A stretch of DNA of 64,000 bases from Antedon mediterranea (Eukaryota > Echinodermata > Crinoidea > Comatulida > Antedonidae), in the NCBI RefSeq assembly GCF_964355755.1, contig NC_092677.1, positions 3,105,001-3,169,000 on the forward strand, in the 5' to 3' direction. Positions 33,301 through 36,980 of this stretch are shown here, one piece after another. Each line of letters starts with the position of its first letter. The stretch's first letter is position 1. Made by a program: the position numbers and the translations under genes. The notes beneath the pieces were generated by a model, which saw only the letters and a list, made by a program, of their open reading frames with translations, was not told the DNA's origin and made no database searches.

Positions 33301-35165
33301 ACCTTGGGCTTAGAAGGAAAGCACATTACCACCAAGTTCCATTTTAAGTATTTTAATTTAAAAGATTTAATTTCGTTAAGGTAATAAATTGAAGCCATTT
33401 CCGCAAATATAAAATTCTAATTTCATGACGGAACACTCACCGATTCAACAGAAAGAAAACAAAGTCATTAAAGAAACCATATTATAAATAATTGCGGTGA
33501 ATTTAAATGTCAACAATAATATGACCTAGTTAATTAATAATCAACTAAATCAAGTGGATCTCTCCAATTTGATTGGCTAATCAAACCGGGTGGAAGAGGG
33601 AGTTAATGTTAATATGGGAGTTCGTTCGTTGTCCCATGACCTAGGTGGTCGTAGGGGCGTAGAAGACGAGATACAGTAGTACTCATCATGATATGACACT
33701 CGGGCACACGCCATATCTGCCAGCAGTGCCCTCTCTGGGATGGCGGGGGTTTTTGCTGGACGGCTGTCGTTAGTTCTCCTTGTGGGTGTCCAACCGCCCT
33801 CTACACCATGTTCTAAAAGAGTTGATGTGTACCGGTGGGAGTAAAAGCGGGTTTAAAATTAGACGACTTATTGTTTCTTTTTATCCATCCTGATTTTATT
33901 TACGTTTAGCTTAAGTATAGTTATGATACGCCAAAATACTTTTTTTACTGTTGAGCCTAGACTAGTTTAAAATAGGATGACAAAGTGGAAGAAGTGGGAA
34001 CGACTTAAAATCTTCTCATACTGTCTATTAACTGTCTTTTATTGTACAGTTTTACATTTTTCTTTGAGGGGGAAAGGGGAGGGGGGTATGAACTCGTTTA
34101 AATAAATATCAAAGTTTAAACCAATTAAATACAACTTTCTACCAATTTATATTAAATTGAAAAATTATTATAAAACGGTTTTGAAATTGATCTACGTGAA
34201 ATGAACCATTAACATTTTAACTGACATTTGAAAGGAGGTTGAACGAGTCAACCATAAAACATCAACAAAAAATTAATTTTAAAGAATTACAAATTTTAAA
34301 TGTTTATTACAGTAGAAAGTGACCCTGTTAAGGGGACATCTTTGGGACCCAACAGTGTCCTCTTAATAGGGAATGTCCCTTGAATATTTGTTGGTTGTGA
34401 TGGTGTCTCCCAGAGGCTGTCCCCTAAGTAAGTAAGGGGTATCCCAAATGAGGGGTTTTCTTATATTTTGATTTACTTTAACTGCATCTTTAAAGACACA
34501 ATTTGCATAGTAATTAAGTAAGTAATTAATTGTAAATTGTAATTTAAGTAAGTGCATGATTGCATCCATTTTAGTTAATGGACTAGTAAGTACGCTCCAC
34601 ACTCTCTCATTACCATTGACTAACCAGGCCTAGAAATGAAATGGAGCGGAGAAAAAGTCGCCGGTACATCAGCCACAAATATATGTCTGCTCTATTAATC
34701 TTTGTGCTGGAGATTTAAAGTTTGAAAAATATACAAAAAGAAACCTATTAAACAAACTTTGCCGTGATAACTTAAAGCATACGTACCTCCATCGGCGTAG
34801 ATTTCTTGGCCGTAGCCATCCTGTAAGCCGCTGCACCATGTTCCCTCGTACCGCGCGCCGCTCGCTAAACTCTGTATTACTCCATATTTTCCTTTATAGC
34901 CTTGAGTCCATTCACCGCGGTAAACCCAACGGCCCTTCGTTTCTACACCTAGGCCATGGCGCCGTCCATTTTCCCATTGGCCTTCAAAGGTGTTACCGCT
35001 GGGCCACGTGTAAACGCCGGACGTTTCAAATCCGTAGTGCCATGCACCGCTGTACTCGCCTTTGTTCTGCGGCCCGGTACAGATGCCATGTCCGTGCGCT
35101 TTACCTTCCTCCCAACCGCCTGTAAATGAGCCTCCGTCCGCGAAAATAAAACGGCCACCATTCAT
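12248..35165 (-). CDS. JPH: Junctophilin
   Basis: Junctophilin tethers the endoplasmic/sarcoplasmic reticulum to the plasma membrane in excitable cells, bringing calcium channels of both membranes together. Five coding exons (35165-34787, 23537-22739, 13808-13690, 13563-12701, 12370-12248) have phases 1, 2, 1, 0 and sum to 2283 nt, a 760-residue protein (human JPHs 628-748). Order: MORN repeats at about 5-150 ([65 protein letters not shown]), a joining region with the basic run LKRKKKRDR, two further MORN repeats ([28 protein letters not shown]), an alanine/lysine-rich alpha-helical region crossing exons 2-3, a divergent Ser/His/Asp-rich region, and a C-terminal membrane anchor. The start aligns with the conserved M-x-GGRF beginning of the family. 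Confidence 0.96.
12371..12700 (-). other. Junctophilin intron 4
   Basis: A 330-base GT-AG intron. Nothing else was seen in it; open frames here are chance. Confidence 0.85.
12701..13563 (-). CDS. JPH: Junctophilin exon 4 (divergent region)
   Basis: Encodes about residues 433-720. Acceptor ttgttacag, donor AAAG|gtaaaa. Starts [19 protein letters not shown], then a Ser/His/Asp/Tyr-rich low-complexity stretch, a Pro/Lys-rich patch ([16 protein letters not shown]) and an acidic end ([14 protein letters not shown]). Confidence 0.93.
13690..13808 (-). CDS. JPH: Junctophilin exon 3 (alpha-helical region)
   Basis: A 119-base exon read as [20 protein letters not shown]..., continuing the helical region. 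Acceptor ttatttcag, donor AAAG|gttaga. It enters in phase 2, completing an AG|A arginine codon, and leaves in phase 1. Confidence 0.93.
19195..19555 (+). repeat. Polypurine tract of about 350 bp
   Basis: The plus strand is almost entirely A and G in imperfect repeats such as gaaagagggaagg and aggtcggaagaaag. It produces long chance open frames on both strands (Arg/Lys/Glu or Phe/Leu/Ser only) that are not genes. Confidence 0.85.
19678..19711. repeat. Small palindrome, CATGGAGGTATAA arms
   Basis: CATGGAGGTATAA at 19678-19690 is complementary to 19699-19711, with an 8-base loop. Shares its arm with 10563-10594. Confidence 0.75.
19842..20002. mobile_element. TA-flanked MITE with 40-bp ends, 161 bp
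   Basis: Ends are AAGCTGATTTTCC and GGAAAATTGGCTT, followed by a near-perfect ACTAGGCGAATTTGTTCGCG arm on each side. TA lies at 19840-19841 and 20003-20004. Confidence 0.8.
20899..21029. mobile_element. Family A MITE, right end lost
   Basis: Starts AAGCTCTGTCTACACTATCA and carries the gtgatatgcccatatatgg core and atgacatcatcatgtacata. The right inverted end is absent. Confidence 0.8.
21855..22036. mobile_element. Family B MITE
   Basis: Left end aaagcgtggttcccactag, right end ctagtgggaaccaagctta. Inside are gcaaggacgtaacgca and accaatcacaagcg with complementary counterparts. Confidence 0.8.
22434..22735. repeat. Minisatellite, 20-bp unit (about 15 copies)
   Basis: The unit ttatcaatatgtatcaatag repeats with a few g/t changes and one short unit near the end. 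On the transcript strand it begins only a few bases after the junctophilin exon 2 donor (gtaagata). Confidence 0.92.
22739..23537 (-). CDS. JPH: Junctophilin exon 2 (MORN, joining region, MORN, helix)
   Basis: Encodes about residues 127-393. Acceptor is a T tract ending ttcag, donor CAAG|gtaaga. Opens [17 protein letters not shown], then [18 protein letters not shown], the joining region with basic LKRKKKRDR and several Ser-rich stretches, two more MORN repeats and the start of the helical region ([10 protein letters not shown]). Confidence 0.95.
24250..24548 (-). mobile_element. SINE family 2 (tRNA-derived), antisense copy
   Basis: Read on the minus strand it begins with a box A (GCCGAGCGGTTAAGACAGTG), then box B GGTTCGAGGC, and runs to a tail reading actggtctttgactgaagag and ttgcccagtataaatat. 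It matches 60735-60984 in opposite orientation over its length. Confidence 0.8.
24640..24960. repeat. Minisatellite, 53-bp unit (about 6 copies)
   Basis: The unit runs ggataccatgggcttgcc, aaaaatgtggataccctg, agctggccccaaaatat; starts at 24661, 24714, 24767, 24819, 24871 and 24918. Degenerate units continue to about 25040. As 53 is not a multiple of 3, all three minus-strand frames stay open by periodicity. Confidence 0.92.
25520..25603. repeat. Minisatellite, 20-bp palindromic unit (4 copies)
   Basis: Four exact copies of tggtattgttataccaaata; ggtat and atacc make each unit self-complementary. Confidence 0.9.
26529..26673. mobile_element. Short inverted-repeat element, 145 bp
   Basis: CAGTGGCGTAACG at the left and GCATTACGCCATGG at the right are near-complements; inside, agggccccaagcc and ggagggccc add a second weak arm. 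The GTGGCGTAAC end resembles ends of several cut-and-paste elements, but the superfamily cannot be assigned. Confidence 0.5.
27273..27400. mobile_element. Family A MITE
   Basis: Left end AAGCTCTGTCTACACTATCA, right end tttgatagtgtagacagatc; the core has gatgtgcccaaatatggtag. It lies 36 bases from the next copy. Confidence 0.85.
27437..27594. mobile_element. Family A MITE
   Basis: Starts aagctctgtctacactttgt and ends gtttgatagtgtatacagaa. The core has two gcatatcactac-type units. Confidence 0.85.
28970..29212 (+). mobile_element. SINE family 1 (tRNA-like) with expanded box B
   Basis: The head ctgtagcttggtggttggtt is box A-like and ggttcaatcctgacc is box B-like. The 23-bp unit gggttcaatcctgacctagt plus a CA-containing joint occurs six times (29011-29148). 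The 3' part is ccctaagcctcaaatgagac, shared with the copies at 33195 and 59213. Confidence 0.8.
29796..29943. mobile_element. Family A MITE with amplified core
   Basis: Left end aagctctgtttacactatca. Inside, atatttgggcatatcactacc repeats three times. The right end is lost, as the sequence leaves the family after the last unit. Confidence 0.8.
29998..30075. repeat. Minisatellite, about 28-bp unit (3 copies)
   Basis: Repeated ggttacatcgaatatccttg with ttacctt joints. Confidence 0.85.
30835..30973. mobile_element. Family B MITE
   Basis: Left end aagtttggttcccactagg, then gaccaatcacaacgcaatgg and the complementary cgcttgtgattggtca. The right end is decayed (gcggtaagct). A run of 14-15 G lies directly before it (30819-30833). 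Confidence 0.75.
32430..32505 (+). mobile_element. SINE family 3, tRNA-like head
   Basis: AGTGGTCTAGTGGCTAAGCA is a good box A and AAGGTTTGACCCACTCC a box B-like match at tRNA spacing. The 3' part is not defined. A further truncated head (gtggtctagtggttaa) lies at 36089-36104. Confidence 0.5.
33195..33345 (-). mobile_element. SINE family 1, antisense copy
   Basis: Contains gtctcatttgaggcttaggg and ctaggtcaggattggattga, the complements of the 3' part and box B section of the 28970 copy. Only one degenerate box B unit is present. Confidence 0.75.
34787..35165 (-). CDS. JPH: Junctophilin exon 1 (N-terminal MORN block)
   Basis: Encodes residues 1-126, starting [20 protein letters not shown] and ending QEIYADGG in phase 1, donor GGAG|gtacgt. 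Several MORN repeats fall here. An in-frame extension upstream is possible: an acceptor-like AG sits at 35220-35219 and no stop lies between it and this ATG. Confidence 0.95.
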
Positions 35166-36491: not shown

Positions 36492-36980
36492 ATGGTGTGC
36501 AAAAGGGATGTATTGTCGTGGTTTAAGGAACTTAATATCTTCAAAAGACTTGACTTTGTGTGTGCTTTGATGGATTGTTGTAACCCCATTGAGTTGCGTT
36601 TTCTAGGGACGTACGTAGAAGACCTCTGCCGCAGGGACTACGATCGGCTGAGGGAATTCCAGATAAATGCAAGCAACGTTCAGTATTTGTCTAAACTTAC
36701 GGACGTAAATGACATTAGAACTCTTGATAAAATGCTTACTAGTTTAGCATTAATGGACTCCACATTTAAGGAGGGAGCTGAGGTGATATTTGATATATTA
36801 AAACAGCATACGGACTCGATTTTATATTCCTATCAAACATCGGTGTCTATCGAGCGAGTTATGTTGTTGGCAGTTATGGCTGTAAATCACCCAGCCTTTG
36901 AATTCAGCCAAAAACAAGAATTGAGGACTCAACTATCTGTCCTACTCAAGGCAGTAGAAGTGAATTCACCATGCAACCAG
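36492..36980 (+). CDS. ZCCHC14: ZCCHC14 exon 1
   Basis: Encodes residues 1-163, the conserved helical N-terminal region ending SPCNQ. Donor CCAG|gtcagt, phase 0. Confidence 0.94.

Follow-up and report, generated by a model that had tools for sequence, protein, structure and literature searches.

Probable common ancestry of a head-to-head junctophilin–ZCCHC14 gene pair in the crinoid Antedon mediterranea and in human

Why do a junctophilin gene and a ZCCHC14 gene stand back to back in a crinoid, oriented to each other as their human counterparts are, and was that arrangement inherited or reached twice? The stretch that raises this question, here called the window, comprises 64,000 nucleotides of Antedon mediterranea contig NC_092677.1 (C8:3105001-3169000), and its genes were searched against the genome of the same animal (18 contigs; 354 Mb, 354.4 Mb to one decimal). 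The COX1 family gave no match in these 18 contigs. An initial annotation had read the locus as divergent junctophilin (JPH, minus strand) and ZCCHC14 (plus strand) genes with start codons 1.1-1.3 kb apart, and had proposed ancient microsynteny. The layout proved to be as described: the JPH start codon lies at 35165 on the minus strand and that of ZCCHC14 at 36492 on the plus strand, head-to-head and 1,326 bases apart. Judged from gene identity and gene order, this adjacency very probably goes back to an ancestor shared with vertebrates, a statement that takes together the three ancestral readings weighed below.

The two genes and the interval between them

The features that make up the pair are as follows.

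34787..35165, minus strand: JPH exon 1, MORN repeats; start codon from 35165; GT donor at 34786-34785
22739..23537, minus strand: JPH exon 2, MORN joining region and remaining MORN repeats; Pfam and PDB match, splice sites read
13690..13808, minus strand: JPH exon 3, alpha-helical region; boundaries from AG/GT, by eye
12701..13567, minus strand: JPH exon 4, divergent region; by eye, 5' boundary approximate
12255..12400, minus strand: probable JPH last exon, putative C-terminal membrane anchor; by eye, boundaries approximate
35166..36491, no strand: interval between start codons; no other genome match, no tandem array; tRNA-like motif at 36088-36103
36492..36980, plus strand: ZCCHC14 exon 1, 163 amino acids; Vts1-like N-terminal domain (E 6e-18); GT donor at 36981
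59584..60342, plus strand: ZCCHC14 SAM domain in two exons (about 59584-59760 and about 60259-60342)
61598..62944, plus strand: ZCCHC14 large 3' exon; CCHC zinc knuckle at about 62822-62869; exon ends approximate

The minus-strand gene carries its MORN repeats in the arrangement specific to junctophilins. Exon 1 ends at 34787 and holds 126 full codons (34788-35165, minus strand), and the best PDB matches of residues 1-126 are junctophilin-2 (E 4.9e-68) and junctophilin-1 (E 6.7e-65). The first intron is 11 kb long, and on its far side exon 2, for which domain and PDB searches were run on 22738-23538, takes up the same chain: in 7rxe_A, exon 1 matches up to position 129 and exon 2 from position 130. 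Exon 4 gave no Pfam family in a Pfam scan, and a hydrophobic exon at ~12.3 kb, read by eye from the translation, is a candidate for the C-terminal membrane anchor. Within the genome exon 1 has one strong match, the other six of its seven matches being weak and of MORN type (E 4.3e-5 to 0.008), which points to a single gene. In the accessible text of PMC5818072, invertebrates all have one junctophilin gene and mammals four, and a lone junctophilin gene would fit an invertebrate.

On the plus strand, Vts1-like, SAM and CCHC domains follow one another in that order up to 62.9 kb, the domain set (Vts1-like N-terminus, SAM, C-terminal CCHC knuckle) that we take to characterise ZCCHC14 and ZCCHC2. 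The SAM domain reaches E 2.2e-5 after joining of its two exons (~59.6-60.3 kb), the zinc knuckle at ~62.82-62.87 kb has E 5.5e-5, and exon 1 has one match in the genome at E <= 1. We infer that these exons probably belong to one ZCCHC14 gene. No ZCCHC14 exon was identified by domain from 37 to 57 kb, ~20 kb that would form a long first intron, and 38754-38981 gave no Pfam family. Smaug, the only PDB match of the SAM domain at E <= 0.01, was considered for this gene and rejected on the CCHC knuckle and on the Vts1-like score, which is 66.8 bits here versus 29.5 at a separate, weaker Vts1-type locus on contig C10; the latter is the better Smaug candidate. A degenerate TCA repeat of ~350 bp (59847-60192) lies in the intron that separates the SAM exons.

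The gap between the start codons has an observed/expected CpG ratio of 1.09 versus 0.81 for the window, and the 1-kb windows starting at 35001-36001 rank at the 73rd-85th percentile. A CpG-rich promoter in the gap was rejected, as such enrichment is not distinctive. The 1,326 bases have no other match in the genome, in a search that may skip common words, and contain no tandem array, merely weak two-copy and AT-rich inverted repeats. The idea that the gap is a transposon was likewise rejected for want of any other genome match, yet a tRNA-like motif, GTGGTCTAGTGGTTAA, is present at 36088-36103, with others at 7971, 24531, 32437 and 59225 (five window matches with up to 3 mismatches, 0.54 expected); these are possibly fragments of a tRNA-derived short interspersed nuclear element. 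Neither Rfam, at its gathering threshold, nor ARAGORN gave a match anywhere in the window. Nothing in the gap establishes a promoter or enhancer common to the two genes.

The human neighbourhood and the shared linkage group

The hg19 table in PMC8887189 lists, in order, FBXO31 (minus, to 87,417,382), MAP1LC3B (plus), ZCCHC14 (minus, 87,439,853-87,526,630), JPH3 (plus, from 87,636,113) and KLHDC4 (minus). As the initial annotation had stated, human ZCCHC14 and JPH3 stand next to each other there and are divergent; their listed 5' ends are 109,483 bases apart, the JPH3 transcript as listed being a short one of two exons. The human gap, taken between 5' transcript ends, is ~80 times longer than the crinoid gap, taken between start codons, so any constraint would act on order and not on compactness. 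The same neighbours stand together in distant lineages, as represented by the two species compared, this crinoid and human.

Beyond the pair itself, five marker families with human members at 16q24 were chosen and searched for in the crinoid genome; among these, human TCF25 and GAS8 presumably lie at 16q24.3. Four of the five fall on the contig that carries the pair:

FBXO31: C8, 26.6 Mb
CBFA2T/NHR2: C8, 9.9 Mb; one stop within the match
TCF25: C8, 26.7 Mb
GAS8: C8, 10.8 Mb

This contig makes up 8% of the assembly, and the chance of finding at least four of five marker families on it is ~2e-4. One control family, MIF4G_like/NCBP1, whose human NCBP1 gene we take to be on 9q, fell on C11. CBFA2T3 is placed at human 16q24 in the accessible part of PMC7349372. 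The concentration of marker families indicates that the linkage group has been conserved, and with linkage conserved at the level of the chromosome the presence of JPH and ZCCHC14 on one contig needs no special cause.

Their adjacency is a different question. FBXO31 lies 22 kb from ZCCHC14 in human and 23.5 Mb from it here, which indicates that local order was scrambled while JPH and ZCCHC14 stayed together; two of the human neighbours have been lost. Given that the two genes are linked, shuffled order would leave them adjacent and divergent with a probability of ~0.0003 at N = 1,800 genes, a number scaled up from a stretch of 204 kb in which 13 genes were counted (eleven with names and two coding-looking open reading frames), and of 0.0002-0.0005 at N = 2,500-1,000. 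Allowing for three adjacent pairs among the four recognised window genes raises this to ~8e-4. With order scrambled and chance this small, common descent is the best reading of the adjacency. CHMP1A and EDC4, both close to the pair, and the absence of any other genome match for the gap are further points in its favour.

Several observations weigh against it. The comparison covers two species, and the compact layout is not itself conserved, the human gap being 109 kb. Human JPH1, JPH2 and JPH4 are not known to adjoin any ZCCHC14-family gene, nor ZCCHC2 any JPH gene; adjacency is therefore not indispensable. Neither the CpG nor the motif content of the crinoid gap is remarkable, and the motif scan, which had no shuffled control, was given no weight. 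The fifth marker family, ATG8, was chosen for MAP1LC3B (ATG8/LC3), which adjoins ZCCHC14 in the human table (PMC8887189); its six matches lie on C10, C7 and C3, and none on C8. Of what the initial annotation had proposed, divergent neighbours in both species and conserved linkage are supported; shared cis-regulation or an enhancer block is not supported. A search for relatives of JPH exon 1 found none among 20 pattern stretches in genome contigs and none among four in viral contigs, sets that include no other animal genome.

Retention of the pair

If the pair is ancestral, what kept it together? The identity and orientation of the genes, the single strong match, the conserved linkage and the loss of two human neighbours are observed; common descent and the reason for retention are inferred. 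We favour, at roughly even confidence, the explanation that the pair persisted because its gap is needed by both genes. Other genes of the ancestral linkage group would have moved far off while this pair was not split: the interval between the start codons would have to accommodate both promoters and both 5' ends, so that a break within it would be expected to harm at least one gene.

Somewhat less probable, at a little over one chance in three, is slow neutral decay, which the initial annotation had also raised and by which the ancestral adjacency, under no constraint, has simply not yet been broken by random inversions. Such decay fits the chromosome-level data, a conserved linkage group with scrambled order, and large insertions between the two genes are evidently tolerated, as the 109-kb human gap shows. 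A possible short-range remnant also speaks for it, in that EDC4 has a TSNAXIP1-like gene as its direct neighbour not far from the pair. The relocation of FBXO31, however, means that a break did occur near the pair, a point that is not decisive, and local adjacency still needs luck or constraint. Functional constraint and low recombination are named as alternative causes of block retention in the accessible text of Robert et al. 2022 (PMC8851819).

A genomic regulatory block, in which enhancers of one gene within the introns of the other or within the gap make the pair inseparable, seems distinctly unlikely. Junctophilin is a structural protein and not the usual developmental regulator of such blocks; long first introns do flank the gap on both sides (11 kb in JPH, ~20 kb in ZCCHC14, where no exon was identified by domain), which would suit such a block. 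Support of another kind comes from human, where a variant associated with small-vessel stroke lies between JPH3 and ZCCHC14, in chromatin described as enhancer-marked, and is linked to ZCCHC14 expression (PMC5366092, in its accessible text). Set beside the regulatory blocks described in the accessible part of PMC8851819, the locus resembles them in its long introns and conserved adjacency and differs in that the JPH-ZCCHC14 pair includes no developmental regulator and that a cross-gene enhancer is here merely hypothetical.

Independent adjacency here and in vertebrates, favoured in so far as a shared ancestral linkage group raises the odds and a pick is possible among the three adjacent pairs, is very improbable; the chance of such an adjacency is ~3e-4 per pair, or ~8e-4 for three.

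Surroundings and meaning of the pair

Other features of the window are these.

535..3098, plus strand: CHMP1A, 3' exons; PDB match; left end of the window
5170..7503, minus strand: protein kinase, two exons, TSSK-like by eye; between JPH and CHMP1A
21-bp satellite arrays: 20944-20983, 29868-29944, 40622-40691, 40798-40847, 46239-46402, 48146-48285

The gene at the left end had been named CHMP1A in the initial annotation, and the PDB comparison agrees (CHMP1a 148.3 bits, CHMP1b 113.1); 32 kb separate its end from the start of JPH. For the kinase, we note that human TSSK4 and JPH4 are presumably both on 14q11.2-q12. The 21-bp satellite unit (such as GTGATATGCCCAAATATGGTA) occurs in short arrays on both sides of the gene pair, and a tandem array of 60/76/136-bp units occupies 63705-64000, up to the right edge of the window.

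The flanks were examined over 70 kb on each side. On the left, Pfam identified RBM39 together with a protein that carries a VTT domain (TMEM64-like by eye); on the right it identified EDC4 (EDC4_C, Ge1_WD40) and a LIM protein. The left flank also has a CSNK2A-like exon at 27.5 bits, below the Pfam kinase cut-off of 31.7, and the right a PRRT-like gene, read by eye; a 96-amino-acid open reading frame in the flanks gave no Pfam family. EDC4 is found 61-81 kb beyond the start of ZCCHC14, and for one of its exons generic WD40 proteins were what PDB returned among the best 60 of 117 matches. On the minus strand, EDC4 adjoins the plus-strand TSNAXIP1-like gene, about 34-70 kb to the right of the window end; TSNAXIP1_N matches two of the five open reading frames of the latter, both below cut-off (25.2 bits versus 27). 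We take human EDC4 and TSNAXIP1 to be close together at 16q22.1, and their adjacency here may be a second local remnant. The human counterparts of EDC4, TSNAXIP1 and CHMP1A map to 16q, that of RBM39 to 20q and that of TMEM64 to 8q, chromosomes that presumably also carry JPH paralogues.

Ancient microsynteny is an established phenomenon, of which JPH-ZCCHC14 is one well-supported example. Irimia et al. 2012 reportedly described ancient metazoan microsyntenic gene pairs, and the present pair is like them in that two unrelated genes have remained side by side in distantly related animals. In the accessible text of PMC8851819, 256 microsyntenic blocks were gained in the bilaterian ancestor versus 45, 48 or 56 in shuffled genomes; blocks there consist of at least three genes, whereas we describe a pair in two species. 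Divergently paired genes with bidirectional promoters, as treated in the accessible part of PMC3815023, share the head-to-head layout and the short interval found here. Their start sites lie within 1 kb of each other; the 1,326 bases in the crinoid are a spacing of start codons, not of start sites, and the listed human 5' ends are 109,483 bases apart. A literature search found no paper on JPH-ZCCHC14 as a microsyntenic pair, and it did not cover the published lists of ancient pairs, which may include this one.

In the most far-reaching version of this history, which we consider unlikely, the genes would have stood head-to-head since before the bilaterian (or an earlier animal) ancestor through a shared regulatory interval, coupling a builder of muscle and nerve membrane junctions to a regulator of RNA tails, and the enhancer region of vertebrate JPH3-ZCCHC14 implicated in small-vessel stroke would be its descendant. 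Should the pair prove to be kept in many phyla, two genes would suffice for a simple test of why certain neighbours escape reshuffling, and the human JPH3-ZCCHC14 stroke-variant region, as described in the accessible text of PMC5366092, would gain an evolutionary setting.

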